DNA from: Candidatus Bathyarchaeota archaeon | GTDB taxonomy: Archaea; Thermoproteota; Bathyarchaeia; Bathyarchaeales; Bathycorpusculaceae | Length of the DNA: 46,773 nt | Reading direction: 5' to 3' | Assembly (NCBI GenBank): GCA_003133625.1 | Contig: PKYH01000046.1 | Location: forward strand, 1 to 46,773 | Part shown: positions 40,655 to 46,773 of the stretch, in pieces | Position numbering within the stretch: position 1 is the first letter of the stretch | Layout of the letters: each line of letters opens with the position of its first letter | Program-made: the position numbers and the translations under genes | The notes under the pieces: model-generated | What the model saw: only the letters and a program-made list of their open reading frames with translations | Told to the model about the DNA's origin: nothing | Database searches by the model: none

Positions 40655-41413
40655 GTGAACACTATTCAAGTAATCGCTGTTGAAAATTTACCGTTAATAA
40701 AGAAAGGAGACAACTTGGGTCAGCTTATCGTTGAAACGGCAAAAAAACAGAACACACCAATCCAAGAAAAAGACGTCATTGTGGTTACGCATGTTGCTGT
40801 TTCGAAAGCTGAAGGAAACATAATTAATCTTGACCAAGTTACGCCTTCGGAAAGGGCAAAGGAAATAGCGGAAAAAATCAACAAAGACCCTGCTATGGTT
40901 GAAGTAATTCTTCAAGAAACCAAAGACATTATTCGAATTGGTCAAAACAGCATCATTACAGAAACCAAGAGTGGCGTGATTTGTGCCAACGCTGGAGTAG
41001 ACCGATCCAACGTTTCAGGCGACAGAAATGTTGTGCCACTGCCAAAAAACCCTAATGCTTCTGCACAAAACATAAGGCAAGAAATAAAACGGTTAACAGG
41101 CGCTAATGTGGCGGTTATTGTTTCTGACACACATGGCAGACCCTTCAGGATGGGTGAAATTAACGTGACAGTTGGCGTAGCAGGAATCAAGCCTATAAGA
41201 GACAGGCGAGGCGAAAAAGATCTCTTCGGATATGTTCTGAGAATAAAACAAACCGCCATCGCAGACGAATTATCTTCGGCAGCGGAACTTGTCATTGGTC
41301 AAGCGAATGAGGGAATACCGGCCGCTATCATCCGAGGGTACAAGTACCAAACTGCCGAAAACGCCTCAGCAACAGAACTCACTAGACCAAAAGAAAAAGA
41401 CCTTTTCAGATAA
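40655..41413 (+). CDS. cofE: Coenzyme F420-0:L-glutamate ligase (GTG start)
   Basis: VVTHVAVSKAEGNIINL...SGVICANAGVDRSNV...VIVSDTHGRPFRMGEINVTVGVAGIKPIRDRRGEKDLFGYVLRIKQTAIADELSSAAELVIGQANEGIPA. Confidence 0.93.
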   Translation: MNTIQVIAVENLPLIKKGDNLGQLIVETAKKQNTPIQEKDVIVVTHVAVSKAEGNIINLDQVTPSERAKEIAEKINKDPAMVEVILQETKDIIRIGQNSIITETKSGVICANAGVDRSNVSGDRNVVPLPKNPNASAQNIRQEIKRLTGANVAVIVSDTHGRPFRMGEINVTVGVAGIKPIRDRRGEKDLFGYVLRIKQTAIADELSSAAELVIGQANEGIPAAIIRGYKYQTAENASATELTRPKEKDLFR

Positions 41414-41467
41414 ACCATTCAATAAAGTTCAATAACCTAATTGTGTACAATAGGAGGAAACTACGAG

Positions 41468-41806
41468 TTGAAAATGATGGAAGCTAAAACGCCAAAGGAG
41501 TTTTTCGAAAAAGCGTTACCTGTCAGATTCAAACCTGATAAAGCGGCAGGCATTGACGTTATAGCTCAATTAAACTTAACCGGTTTAGAGGGAGGTGACT
41601 GGGTGGTCATTATAAAAGATCAAAAATTGCAGGTAACAGAGGGAACCCAGTCCTCACCAGCATTGACGCTGAAGATCGCTGTAAGCGATTTTATGAACAT
41701 AGTAAACGGAAAGTTAAGCGCTGAGAAAGCTCTTTTCACAGGAAAAATCCATTTCAAAGGCAACATTAGCTTGGCGTTAAAATTAAAGGACGCAGGCTTT
41801 CTATAA
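41468..41806 (+). CDS. SCP2 sterol-binding-like domain protein
   Basis: LNLTGLEGGDWVVIIKDQKLQVTEG...LTLKIAVSDFMNIVNGKLSAEKALFTGKIHFKGNISLALKL; AGGAGG upstream of TTG. Confidence 0.83.
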   Translation: MKMMEAKTPKEFFEKALPVRFKPDKAAGIDVIAQLNLTGLEGGDWVVIIKDQKLQVTEGTQSSPALTLKIAVSDFMNIVNGKLSAEKALFTGKIHFKGNISLALKLKDAGFL

Positions 41807-42239
41807 GATTATTTTAAGCCATGCTTTCGAACAACTTCTAAAGGCAAGTCGTACTCGCCAATTTTGAATGTATGCGGCAGCAGAGATGCATTTCCTGTTG
41901 CATTTTCTTTGTCTCTTCAAATTGTAAGGTGATTATGCTTCTTTTATTTAGCGTTAATTTTGGATGCGAACATAATCAACGAATTAATCATAGTTAATTT
42001 TAAATATAACTGCACTAATATCGCCTTTTAATTACTGGTGTCTAATGAGTGTTGGTCGTCTCAAACATCGACCTAGCAACTGATTCGCATGTGCTAAAGC
42101 CTTCAACGTTTCTAGATTTATCAATCGAAGCTTCTTTTCACTTGGCGTTATCCAAGAATTGTATAGTTAGAAATAAGTACTTCTTCTCAAAACACAAAGC
42201 AATCCTAAACAAGGAAATAATCATGGAAGAGAAATAATT

Positions 42240-43376
42240 ATGGAAGAGACCGAAGAAGAACACTTGCAACATAACCATGAAAACGACGAGGATCTAAAAA
42301 GTCGCAGCCCCTTCTCACTTTTGGACGGCGCAACCGCCCAAGTTCCGTCAATAACACCCGAACTGTATTTTGAAAGCAAAACAGCCCGAGATCGCAGCAA
42401 ATCCCTAGAAGAACGGCTCGAATGCTTCGAAATAATACTTGACTCAGAAGTGGGCGACACAAGCCTAACCCGAGCAAGAAACATCGAAAGAGAAGTGGGA
42501 CTCCGACAAATATACTTAAAATTCGAAGGCGGAAACCCAACCGGAACACAAAAAGACCGCATCGCCTTCGCGCAAGCCCTTGACGCACTTCGCAGGGGAT
42601 ACAACGAGATAACAGTCGCCTCATGCGGCAACTACGGCACAGCAATCGCGCTAGCCGCATCCCTCGCTGGATTACGTTGCCTAATATACATCCCTGAAGG
42701 GTACCACGCTAACAGAATCAAAGAAATCAAACAATTAGGCGCCGAAATAATCAAAACTCCAGGAGATTATGAAGAATCCGTGAGAGTTTCCCGCGAACAA
42801 TCTGAAGAAAACGGATATTACGATGCAAATCCAGGCGGAAGCAATACCAACCTCCAATTCAAAGCATACGGCGAAATAGCTTACGAAATCTACGACGAAC
42901 TCAGGGACGCACCTGCCGCCGTGGCCGTACCAGCCTCAAACGGCTCCACAATAGCAGGAATATACAGAGGCTTCCTAAGCCTATACAACCGAGGAAAAAC
43001 ATCCCGCATACCACGCTTCATCGCAGGCTCATCCTACGGCATGAACCCCATAATAAACGCATTCATCAAAAACATGCCCCACTGTTGCGACTTAAAACCA
43101 GAAAAAATCAGAAACACCACAATCAACGAGCCTCTAATCAACTGGCGTTCAATCGACGGCGACTACGCACTGTCCGCCATCAGACAAACCCATGGATGGG
43201 CTGCATACGCAACGGACAAGAGCATGATAGATTACGCACGCTTAATAAGAGAAAAGGAAGGCCTAAGTGTACTTCCAGCGTCCACAGCCGGGCTAATAGC
43301 GCTTCTGGACAGGCATAAAAAGGAACCTTACCCAGGCGACCGATATGTGGTAATCCTTACTGGACGCAAAGCGTGA
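42240..43376 (+). CDS. Threonine-synthase-like PLP-dependent enzyme
   Basis: VGDTSLTRARN...YLKFEGGNPTGTQKDRIA...ASCGNYGTAIALAASLAGL...PASTAGLIALL. Confidence 0.85.
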   Translation: MEETEEEHLQHNHENDEDLKSRSPFSLLDGATAQVPSITPELYFESKTARDRSKSLEERLECFEIILDSEVGDTSLTRARNIEREVGLRQIYLKFEGGNPTGTQKDRIAFAQALDALRRGYNEITVASCGNYGTAIALAASLAGLRCLIYIPEGYHANRIKEIKQLGAEIIKTPGDYEESVRVSREQSEENGYYDANPGGSNTNLQFKAYGEIAYEIYDELRDAPAAVAVPASNGSTIAGIYRGFLSLYNRGKTSRIPRFIAGSSYGMNPIINAFIKNMPHCCDLKPEKIRNTTINEPLINWRSIDGDYALSAIRQTHGWAAYATDKSMIDYARLIREKEGLSVLPASTAGLIALLDRHKKEPYPGDRYVVILTGRKA

Positions 43377-43383
43377 GCAACAT

Positions 43384-44433
43384 ATGCCAGAAGAAAAAGC
43401 ATTAGTCTACTGCGAAAGAGAATACCTAAATGCAAACGGCAAAACAGCTCACGGACTCGTACGTTACACAACCAGATACAAAATTGTGGGTGTCGTAGAT
43501 TCAACTGCTCCTCTGGGGGACGCAGGGGAAATATTAGACGGAAAAAAAAGAGGAATTCCACTATTTTACGACTTAAAAGAAGCCCGCGAAAAAACTAAAC
43601 CCGACACATTTATAATCGGAGCAGTTTCCGAAGGAGGCATTTTGCCGCAAGGTTACGACAAAGCGGTCATTTATGCTTTGCAGCAAGGCCTAAATGTAGT
43701 TTCAGGGCTTCATCAATTCATCTCAGACGAAGAACGGTTCACCTCAATAGCTAACAAAAACGGCTGCAAAATCACAGACGTCCGCAAGATGTTCAGAGAC
43801 CACAAACGGTTCTACACAGGTGAAATTGGCAAAGTAGGCTCAACCAGAATCGCCACCTTAGGCACAGATTCAGCTATTGGAAAGAGAACCACGGCAGTCA
43901 TGCTAGTCAACGAACTGAGGAAACGCAAACGCAAAGCTGACATGATTTACACTGGACAAACTGGATGGATGCAAGGTTGGCCACATGGAGCAGTCATCGA
44001 CGCATTGATAAACGACTTCGTTTCAGGCGGAATTGAAGGAGCAATACTTGACTCGTGGAGAGATGAAAAACCAGAATTCATCATAATCGAAGGACAAGGA
44101 AGTTTGGTGCACCCATTTTTCCCAGGCGGGTTTGAGATAATGGCTGCAGGACAAATTCACGGCTTCACATTGCAGGATGCCCCTGGCCGTCCATATCTTG
44201 ATGGATTCCCTGGTTACCCTATGCCTGATCCTCTCCGCGTTGTTAAGATAGCCAAGCTCCTTTCCGAACGTCCCCTCATCGGAATAAGCATCAATCATGA
44301 GCACCTTTCGCATGAGGAGGCTAGAAAAGCCAAATCTAAGCTGCATAAAAGATTCAAGGTGCCTGTAGAAGATCCCGTCATTGACGACGTTACACAGATA
44401 GCTGACGCCATCGAGAAACTTAGGGATGGTTAA
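43384..44433 (+). CDS. DUF1611 family protein (DgcN-like)
   Basis: LGTDSAIGKRTTAVMLVNELRKRKRKADMIYTGQTGWMQGWPHGAVIDALINDFVSGGIE...IIEGQGSLVHPFFPGGFEIMAAGQIHGF. Confidence 0.83.
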   Translation: MPEEKALVYCEREYLNANGKTAHGLVRYTTRYKIVGVVDSTAPLGDAGEILDGKKRGIPLFYDLKEAREKTKPDTFIIGAVSEGGILPQGYDKAVIYALQQGLNVVSGLHQFISDEERFTSIANKNGCKITDVRKMFRDHKRFYTGEIGKVGSTRIATLGTDSAIGKRTTAVMLVNELRKRKRKADMIYTGQTGWMQGWPHGAVIDALINDFVSGGIEGAILDSWRDEKPEFIIIEGQGSLVHPFFPGGFEIMAAGQIHGFTLQDAPGRPYLDGFPGYPMPDPLRVVKIAKLLSERPLIGISINHEHLSHEEARKAKSKLHKRFKVPVEDPVIDDVTQIADAIEKLRDG

Positions 44434-45865
44434 TGTAACGAATATTCAGTGTTTCAATTCTATCGAAGTCTACGACCCAGAAATTAAGGAAAAAACTGTA
44501 AGAACACGCATAACGTGTGAGAGTATTGATGGAGAACGGCACAGCTTCGTTCTTCTCTCCAAATACGAGAAATCTCTATCAGAAGAGCACTTGGCTTTTT
44601 TAAGGCTGGCGTCAGCTATGCCTATTCTTAACTACGGCCTCTTCACTAAGGAAATCACACTGAAATATTCAATAAGCGAATCTGATGTTTCGCTGCTGAA
44701 GGATCTTTTGGATATTTTCAGCAGAGACATTTTCATCAACAAGTTGATACGTAGAAAAAACCCTTATGTTTTACCTGAATTTAGATTATCAGATGAAGAC
44801 GCAACTGAAGAGAACGCTAAGCCCTTAGCAAGCTTAGTCCCTGCCTCTGTCGTAGAAGATTCCCAGCTTTGCTCTGGACTTGATGAAAACTCGTGTGGTG
44901 TACTTTCAAGTGGTGGAAAAGAGAGCCTCTTGACTTATGCCATGTTGAAGGAGGTTGGGGCAAAGGTTTATCCCTTGTACGTCAACGAGAGCGGAGGACA
45001 CTGGCGAACCGCACTTCCAGCTTACCGTCACCACGTAACCAGCGAGCCCAATAACGGTAGAGTTTGGATTAATGTGGACAGGTTATACACTTTCATGCTG
45101 GATCACATGAGAATCATTAGGCCTGATCACAGACAAGTATGGTCAGACACTTACCCAATAAGGCTATGCATATTCCCAGTCTACGTTTTCTATTTACTGC
45201 CGATATTCTTTTCCCAAAAAATCGGCAACTTATTAATCGGAAGTGAATTTGACGACCCCCGCATTTCTCAGTTCTACAAAGGAATAAAGCATTATTATGG
45301 CGTCTACGACCAGACGCAAGACTTTGACTTAAGAATGGAGAAATGGTACGAAAAGAGGATGCCTGGAATGCGCCAATGGAGTGCCGTTAGACCAGTGTCA
45401 GGACTCATTGTGGAGAGGATATTAACCAAACGATATCCAGAAATTGCCAAGTTTCAACGCTCTTGCCACAGTTGCCACTTCCAAGGCAGAGACATAGTGC
45501 CGTGCGGCGACTGCAGCAAGTGCCTTGGAATTCAGTTGTTCCTTCGCGCCAACAACGTTAATCCCGCCATTATGGGCTATGGCAAAAAGGAAATCGCCGC
45601 ATTTCCTGCTCGACTTGCCAAGGGGGGTCTCAGACTGGATGAAGATGAACGAGAGCACGCCGCTTTTCTCGCCAACAAATATGACTCTTCAATAAAGGGA
45701 ACTGAACATGCTCATGTTGAAACTATTCATCTTCACAAAGACACGGCTGATATGCAGCTTGTGCCAAAGCGTTATCGTTTTCATCTGCTTAAGATAATGA
45801 CAGATTATACGAACGGCTTTACAAAATTGTATAACGATGTTTGGGTTCCAACTACGGAGCCTTAA
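44426..45865 (+). CDS. PP-loop (N-type ATP pyrophosphatase) protein with QueC-like Cys cluster; possibly MurL-like
   Basis: VLSSGGKESLLTYAMLKEVGAKVYPLYV (SGGxxS); CHSCHFQGRDIVPCGDCSKCLGIQLFLRANN; overlaps the upstream gene by 8 nt. Confidence 0.68.
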   Translation: MVNVTNIQCFNSIEVYDPEIKEKTVRTRITCESIDGERHSFVLLSKYEKSLSEEHLAFLRLASAMPILNYGLFTKEITLKYSISESDVSLLKDLLDIFSRDIFINKLIRRKNPYVLPEFRLSDEDATEENAKPLASLVPASVVEDSQLCSGLDENSCGVLSSGGKESLLTYAMLKEVGAKVYPLYVNESGGHWRTALPAYRHHVTSEPNNGRVWINVDRLYTFMLDHMRIIRPDHRQVWSDTYPIRLCIFPVYVFYLLPIFFSQKIGNLLIGSEFDDPRISQFYKGIKHYYGVYDQTQDFDLRMEKWYEKRMPGMRQWSAVRPVSGLIVERILTKRYPEIAKFQRSCHSCHFQGRDIVPCGDCSKCLGIQLFLRANNVNPAIMGYGKKEIAAFPARLAKGGLRLDEDEREHAAFLANKYDSSIKGTEHAHVETIHLHKDTADMQLVPKRYRFHLLKIMTDYTNGFTKLYNDVWVPTTEP

Positions 45866-46355
45866 AGAGAGGTTTGACCATGCGGATGGCATCGCGTGTT
45901 CCGTTGTGTTCAAATCGGTAAAAGCCTACAAGTCTCTGCTTGATTGTGTAACCTGCTTTTTGATAGAGGCTGATTGCAGGTTCATTTCGTTCAGAAACTT
46001 CGAGTTGCGCGAATTTCATCCCCCGCTGCTTCATGTCCTCTTCTGCTGCCGCCAGAAGGCTGATGCCCACACTTAGGTTTTGAAAACGTGGGTCGACATC
46101 GATCGTTTCGACGTTGCCGATTAGACTTCCCTTCCGATAGGTCACGATTATGAACCCTCGCACCGTACAGTTTTCAGTTTCAACTAGGGCTGTACTGTTG
46201 GCTTTTAGGATTAAATATGCCAGCTGACGCTTAGGATAAGCAGTTAATTCGGGGAAGCATGTCTTCTCAATTTCAGAGATAACTCCGATGTCGTTAGCGT
46301 TTGCCCGACGAATTATAGAAGAAGTTTTCTTTCTTTCCACCGCGGTCAACTTCAC
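45852..46355 (-). CDS. RimI-like GNAT N-acetyltransferase
   Basis: RRANANDIGVISEIEKTCFPELTAYPKRQLAYLI...VDPRFQNLSVGISLLAAAEEDMKQRGMKFAQLEVSERNEPAISLYQKAGYTI. Confidence 0.87.
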   Translation of the reverse strand: MKLTAVERKKTSSIIRRANANDIGVISEIEKTCFPELTAYPKRQLAYLILKANSTALVETENCTVRGFIIVTYRKGSLIGNVETIDVDPRFQNLSVGISLLAAAEEDMKQRGMKFAQLEVSERNEPAISLYQKAGYTIKQRLVGFYRFEHNGTRDAIRMVKPLFKAP

Positions 46356-46510: not shown

Positions 46511-46773
46511 GTGGTTGGAATATTGAAACGGAAGGGAAAGACCTTGAAAGAAGCAGTCAAAGACTACGAATTCAATGATAAAATGAGCGTAAATGAGCTT
46601 GTTAACCAGATGGAGAAAGCTTGGGGTTTTACCGCTGGCAAACTTGCCACAGGCGTAAACATCCTTGAAAGCATGATTAACACAAAAGGCTGCGTAAAGT
46701 TTCTCTCATTCACCGGCAACCTAGTCGCCACAGGCACGCGCGGCGTGATAAAGGAACTTGTGAAACGCAAACT
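46511..46773 (+). CDS. dys: Deoxyhypusine synthase, N-terminal part (continues beyond window; GTG start proposed)
   Basis: Manual translation (V)VGILKRKGKTLKEAVKDYEFNDKMSVNELVNQMEKAWGFTAGKLATGVNILESMINTKGCVKFLSFTGNLVATGTRGVIKELVKRK. Confidence 0.85.
   Translation, partial: MVGILKRKGKTLKEAVKDYEFNDKMSVNELVNQMEKAWGFTAGKLATGVNILESMINTKGCVKFLSFTGNLVATGTRGVIKELVKRK

Follow-up and report, generated by a model that had tools for sequence, protein, structure and literature searches.

What does a tightly packed set of three genes, encoding a pyridoxal 5'-phosphate (PLP) enzyme, a DUF1611 protein, and a PP-loop ATPase, do in an archaeon? The set lies on contig PKYH01000046.1 of a Candidatus Bathyarchaeota archaeon (assembly GCA_003133625.1), of which positions 1 to 46,773 of the forward strand were analyzed (46,773 nucleotides [nt]; here called the window). 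The genes form a real, conserved, and apparently undescribed cassette that includes a family resembling MurL, an enzyme that turns L-glutamate into D-glutamate in some bacterial cell walls. A literature search found no description of the combination or of MurL as a PP-loop enzyme. An earlier note, made from the sequence alone, had described three plus-strand open reading frames (ORFs) with a 7-nt gap, an 8-nt overlap, and a leader of about 430 bp. The ORF coordinates agree: 7 nt separate genes 1 and 2, genes 2 and 3 overlap by 8 nt, and the preceding ORF stops at 41806, leaving a leader of 433 nt. The note had left out a conserved fourth neighbor, a convergent GNAT acetyltransferase gene. The features are as follows.

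41807..42239 (+): leader before gene 1, 433 nt, presumed regulatory region
42240..43376 (+): gene 1, 378 aa, fold-type II PLP enzyme of the PRK06381 group (NF004996 over cut-off)
42552-42554 (+): codon of the predicted PLP lysine of gene 1, K105
43384..44433 (+): gene 2, 349 aa, DUF1611 protein and distant DgcN homolog (Pfam/NCBIfam)
43861..43893 (+): P-loop GTDSAIGKRTT of gene 2, residues 160-170
44426..45865 (+): gene 3, 479 aa, MurL-like/QueC-fold PP-loop ATPase (profile comparison and fold)
44909..44926 (+): PP-loop SGGKES of gene 3, residues 162-167; G164, K165, and L168 invariant across homologs
45464..45523 (+): Cys cluster CHSC-x9-CGDCSKC of gene 3; C347, C360, C363, and C366 invariant
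45852..46355 (-): gene 4, GNAT acetyltransferase, convergent; its 3' end and gene 3 share 14 nt

The distribution of the genes shows whether they belong together. In a set of 151 related genomes, the window's own included, the gene 3 ortholog, a DUF1611 gene over the family cut-off, and the gene 1 ortholog (73-100% identity) occur in the same 9 genomes, and gene 1 is always tied to the cassette. Because this occurrence is identical for the three genes, the cassette is patchy yet inseparable among these relatives. In each of the nine cassette genomes, the GNAT gene and gene 3 are arranged tail to tail. Three more genomes carry a distant gene 3 homolog beside a gene 1 of 45% identity, with no DUF1611 gene. 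The neighborhood survey that the earlier note had proposed as a check thus found co-occurrence among related archaea.

Scanning the contigs of the collection with a gene 3 alignment extended the survey to 68 loci, i.e., 56 of class I and 12 of class II. Class I has the order PLP-DUF1611-gene 3 and is found in Bathyarchaeota, many Thermoplasmatota (among them Ferroplasma acidarmanus, with its gene 3 ortholog at L080:7001-8413, as well as Acidiplasma aeolicum, Cuniculiplasma, Thermogymnomonas, and Methanomassiliicoccales), Korarchaeota (Methanodesulfokora), and one Myxococcales metagenome-assembled genome (MAG). A DUF1611 gene is adjacent in 52 of the 56 class I loci and a PLP gene in 49 (ORFs account for 51 and 48, and tblastn adds L095), and the loci missing a partner begin at a contig end, with the exception of L053. 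This locus of the Myxococcales MAG (JAAZNF010000038.1) holds only gene 3 (59% identity) and a GNAT gene, with no PLP or DUF1611 gene nearby; this reflects either a transfer or contamination. The locus L095 (JAJPHT010000039.1) carries a complete cassette in a MAG labeled Proteobacteria bacterium. That public label is probably mistaken, since the sample taken for its phylum overlaps with genomes of Thermoplasmata. A sample of 200 Thermoplasmata genomes included 34 with gene 3, all of which have DUF1611 and 33 of which have the PLP gene.

Pairwise distances among the class I proteins correlate, with r values of 0.72-0.92 that include species relatedness, uncorrected. In some class I loci the PLP gene (46-49% identity versus about 65-70%) or the DUF1611 gene (43-45% versus about 65%) is distant while gene 3 stays at 50-55% (L055, L058, L059, L064, L067, L070, L071, L074 and L057, L066, L068), which suggests that single components have been replaced in place. 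Class II (12 loci; Asgard archaea, Bathyarchaeum, and Spirochaetes) consists of a distant gene 3 homolog followed by an ATP-grasp ligase resembling D-Ala-D-Ala ligase (Ddl) in 11 loci and a GNAT gene in 9, and the PLP gene is convergent or, in Spirochaetes, within the same operon. The class II ligase scores 183 bits on NF002378, below the cut-off of 243, and passes that of Pfam Dala_Dala_lig_C with 117 bits. A third arrangement, class III, is PLP-DUF1611-GNAT in Thermoplasmata genomes without gene 3, where seven clusters were read. GNAT genes accompany all three classes; in class I they were found at 23 loci by ORF, at L095 by tblastn, and at the Korarchaeal L075 by Pfam.

What kind of enzyme gene 3 encodes was approached through families, fold, and profiles. 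Its orthologs in eight other relatives of the 151-genome set share 55-79% identity. No Pfam or NCBIfam family scored above its cut-off, and phmmer/profile searches of the PDB gave spurious tetratricopeptide repeat (TPR) matches or the bare PP-loop alone, with no relevant chain. An AlphaFold2 model (pLDDT 94, pTM 0.92) matched QatC with ATP first in Foldseek (E 9e-5), followed by QueC (E 1e-3) and Cap9, and viral QueC proteins top the structural matches in BFVD. QatC is the best structural match for class I and class II proteins alike, the class II model being moderate (pLDDT 72, 10 sequences) and given little weight. By sequence profile, MurL is the NCBIfam family matched by most members of the gene 3 family (18/26; best E 6e-6), and a Dph6-type PP-loop control matched Dph6, LarE, and QueC but not MurL.

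For the profile comparison we used three Myxococcota MurL homologs (L132-L134; about 110 bits and E about 1e-31 on NF041275); MurL homologs were also sought in the phylum of L095, and MurL sequences in plasmids via the class II homolog, with no match in either case. With hhalign, class II aligned to the MurL homologs at 94% over 320 columns and class I at 90% over 117 columns, against 52-60% for the gene 3 profiles with QueC and at most 1.1% for a column-shuffled MurL control (30 trials each). Classes I and II are homologous to each other (99.4%, E 2e-21). Gene 3 and MurL share the same order of a PP-loop GK[DE]SL, an x-Q motif (YDQ/NHQ), SC, and C-x2-C-x2-C; they differ in that gene 3 has archaeal hosts and no MurD2 alongside, no Mur ligase of the MurD2 type having been recognized among the cassette neighbors. 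Judged by profile, gene 3 is a member of an unnamed family whose closest known relative is MurL. MurL requires ATP, forms AMP, and works unidirectionally from L to D (PMC8788868), and it has been described as a protein with no known domain (PMC5808125). Through the intermediate sequences reported here, MurL is linked to the QueC/QatC PP-loop fold.

The earlier note had also pointed to a QueC-like Cys motif. SGGKES and the Cys cluster are indeed present, but the spacer from C350 to C360 is x9 and not x8, giving C347-x2-C350-x9-C360-G-x-C363-x2-C366. Gene 3 resembles QueC, QatC, and Cap9 in its fold (by Foldseek), its PP-loop ATPase core, and its Cys cluster, which is likely a zinc site as in QueC. 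It differs in having no PF06508 or TIGR00364 match (among relatives the best PF06508 E is 0.0021, short of the cut-off) and in its substrate motifs: VPxRN and YPDC, the QueC substrate motifs (PMC13329287), align with YPIRL and YDQT. Because these positions are altered while the PP-loop and Cys cluster are kept, gene 3 very probably adenylates some carboxylate that is not 7-carboxy-7-deazaguanine. Plain QueC identity was rejected, since 5 of 11 cassette genomes encode a genuine QueC at another locus. A defense role, prompted by QatC as the top structural match, was rejected as well: PADLOC gave noise only, and the linked genes are metabolic. The same match in both classes would fit a QatC/Cap9-like enzyme conjugating an adenylated small acid, supplied by genes 1 and 2, to a protein N terminus or RNA. 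However, no conserved gene for a substrate protein lies beside the cassette, nothing rose above noise in PADLOC, and the QueC substrate motifs are replaced, which leaves macromolecule modification very improbable.

Could gene 1 simply be a threonine synthase? The PLP signature noted earlier was borne out by NPTGTQKDR and a PALP match (Pfam, E 4e-59), and NF004996, a family labeled threonine synthase (PRK06381), scores 435 bits over the full length against a cut-off of 266. However, where canonical ThrC proteins of the same hosts have STGNTSA and NS.NP.RIEGQ, gene 1 has CGN[YF]G, Y[DN]A..G, and NEPL. TGT[QH]KDR, CGN[YF]G, and an invariant NEPL are common to all cassette PLP enzymes in the comparison; NEPL is absent from the three canonical ThrC proteins compared (G000, G013, and Ferroplasma), whose NS.NP.RIEGQ is in turn absent from the cassette enzymes. 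Of 16 cassette genomes, 12 encode a canonical ThrC that exceeds the family cut-off, and the window's genome encodes a separate ThrC homolog on contig C11. We therefore rejected plain threonine synthase for gene 1, which by its motifs is distinct from canonical ThrC and is not the host's only threonine synthase.

These results also bear on a housekeeping explanation, i.e., threonine synthesis next to unrelated tRNA queuosine/archaeosine genes, which the earlier note had named as an outcome that would speak against a joint pathway. The label of NF004996 and the QueC-like Cys motif point that way, but ThrC and true QueC are encoded elsewhere, gene 1 lacks the canonical motifs, and the linkage is strict, so that this explanation is scarcely credible. 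As an observation apart, another PRK06381-like PLP gene of Thermoplasmata lies beside an acetolactate-synthase-like gene in four loci without a cassette (L123-L126), three of which have an adjoining trimethylamine methyltransferase-like gene (both names given by eye).

Gene 2 has been solved structurally in homologs (2g0t, 7xrj, and 2obn; E 1e-27 to 7e-34) and consists of a Rossmann-like N domain and a BioD-like P-loop C domain. The DUF1611 loop reported for it is present as GTDSAIGKRTT, with both DUF1611 domains matched in Pfam (N domain E 8e-23, C domain E 3e-54). Its designation as DgcN-like held only in part: like DgcN of the DgcN-DgcA D-glutamate pathway, gene 2 has both domains and the P-loop GTDxxxGK, but it scores 173.7 bits on NF041892, for which the DgcN equivalog cut-off is 480, and its partners in the window are a PP-loop enzyme and a PLP enzyme instead of DgcA. 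Acyl-phosphate ligase chemistry is possible for gene 2, given the resemblance of its GTDxxxGK loop to BioD, and would account for the replacement of DUF1611 by a Ddl-like ligase in class II.

Do the surrounding genes indicate what is made? In 19 Thermoplasmatales loci, a gene for the archaeal D-aminoacyl-tRNA deacylase (DTD2; PF04414, E 6e-59) immediately precedes gene 1 in the same orientation, 49-398 nt away, and the gene upstream of DTD2 varies between groups. A DgcA-type enolase-superfamily racemase is absent from the window; a related epimerase gene, together with one for an M14-like carboxypeptidase, adjoins the cassette in seven loci (one Bathyarchaeote and six Thermoplasmatota), with the orientation of the pair inverted between the two phyla. 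The best NCBIfam match of this enolase-superfamily neighbor is L-Ala-D/L-Glu epimerase (238-244 bits, cut-off 500). In two Thermoplasmata genomes without gene 3, DUF1611 lies one gene from an enolase-superfamily epimerase (L129:3063-5941 and L130:5477-8350), which recalls DgcN-DgcA.

Such neighbors, and the membership of DUF1611 in the DgcN family, would also suit a catabolic cassette, in which D-amino acids or muropeptide debris of dead bacteria are consumed, DUF1611 acts as in DgcN-DgcA, and the epimerase and M14-like peptidase degrade L-X-D-Glu peptides. E. coli ycjG likewise adjoins a murein-peptide endopeptidase gene (PMC5808125), and the two genomes just described add a further DUF1611-epimerase association. 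Yet the MurL-type reaction spends ATP in the direction from L to D (PMC8788868), the epimerase/peptidase pair is missing beside the cassette in most loci, the window included, and no transporters are linked; catabolism thus appears improbable.

Strict linkage, MurL as the closest relative of gene 3, and D-amino-acid genes as neighbors in other lineages lead us to read the cassette, with confidence that approaches but does not reach an even chance, as a small anabolic pathway in which an amine is blocked and the alpha carbon is then inverted via an acyl-adenylate. The order of steps, the substrate, and the stereochemistry given here are proposals. Gene 1, with its beta/gamma-replacement fold, would make or tailor an amino acid. 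Gene 2 (a Ddl-like ATP-grasp enzyme in other lineages) and the GNAT enzyme would block the amine, either by acylating it or by forming a peptide bond. Following the proposal made for MurL, gene 3 would adenylate the free alpha-carboxylate with ATP, giving AMP and pyrophosphate, whereupon the acidified alpha carbon could be inverted from L to D and the adenylate hydrolyzed. Such a route would end in an N-acyl-D-amino acid or in a short peptide that contains a D-residue. The earlier note had placed the genes in one pathway around a D-Glu-like or otherwise unusual amino acid; co-occurrence, MurL kinship, and neighbors in other lineages that point to D-amino acids, namely DTD2, the epimerase/M14-like pair, and the Ddl-like ligase, speak for such a pathway, but glutamate itself as the substrate found no support.

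Several observations weigh against the anabolic pathway. The earlier note had suggested searching gene 3 against the MurL and QueC families; homology to MurL is detectable and better than that to other PP-loop families, but gene 3 falls far short of strict membership, with 10.6 bits (E 0.14) on NF041275 against an equivalog cut-off of 700. The MurL sequences compared are distant, unassayed Myxococcota homologs (about 110 bits), the class I match to MurL spans the C-terminal half only, and class I matches Dph6 at 56% over 17 PP-loop columns, so that for the PP-loop segment alone Dph6 is slightly better than QueC. Class III keeps PLP, DUF1611, and GNAT without gene 3, which is thus not always needed; the core of three can work alone, and this speaks against a cassette that exists for gene 3 only. 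In Thermoplasmatales no GNAT gene adjoins the cassette, and Tsr3 occupies that place. DTD2 is a general archaeal quality-control gene, and its adjacency within one order may be a single old event.

Enzymes of the QueC superfamily, moreover, mostly make amide or nitrile bonds, and since amides are their chief products, amidation is the main rival. In a synthesis like that of N-acetylglutaminylglutamine amide (NAGGN), the product would be an amidated, N-acetylated solute built from an amino acid or dipeptide. The PLP enzyme would supply the amino acid, a Ddl-like or DUF1611 ligase would couple it, the GNAT enzyme would acetylate the amine, and gene 3 would adenylate the carboxylate so that ammonia can amidate it, in the manner of asparagine synthetase or QueC. 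The union of GNAT, ATP-grasp, and PP-loop enzymes in class II fits such an amidated solute and recalls NAGGN synthesis (an asparagine-synthetase-like PP-loop enzyme plus the GNAT/ATP-grasp protein Ngg, TIGR03103), from which the cassette differs in its Ddl-like ligase, MurL-like PP-loop enzyme, and extra PLP enzyme. Many hosts are low-salinity acidophiles, in which an osmolyte is unexpected. Enzymes that form amides have this QueC/QatC fold and Cys cluster (PMC13329287), but by profile gene 3 is closer to MurL than to QueC, and the neighbors indicate D-amino acids; on balance, we regard a NAGGN-like solute as unlikely, though as the strongest of the alternatives.

Returning to the anabolic pathway, we propose tentatively, and somewhat short of an even chance, an undescribed archaeal route to a D-configured N-acyl-amino acid or short peptide via a new MurL-like family of ATP-dependent epimerases with two interchangeable architectures (DUF1611 or Ddl-like). 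The combined hosts comprise Bathyarchaeota, Thermoplasmatota, Korarchaeota, Asgard archaea, and a few bacteria, and most of them are without murein. The intermediate sequences that link MurL to the PP-loop fold suggest that adenylation-driven epimerization is a chemistry older and wider than wall synthesis. If a D-amino acid or peptide is indeed the product, archaea without a wall, Asgard relatives and cultivable acidophiles among them, have a source dedicated to it on which they spend energy.

Other genes flank the cassette in the window. Upstream lie genes for CofE (F420-0:gamma-glutamyl ligase; 40655-41413) and an SCP2-domain protein (41441-41806), and CofE remains close to the cassette among members of the genus, which is not so in other lineages. 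Downstream, a deoxyhypusine synthase paralog that begins at window position 46511 (L036:5512-6427; contig C16:46511-47426) consists of two overlapping ORFs of 102 and 206 aa, whereas that of the relatives is a single ORF of 316-386 aa. A full-length second copy adjoins the split one, which looks like the result of a frameshift just beyond the window end.

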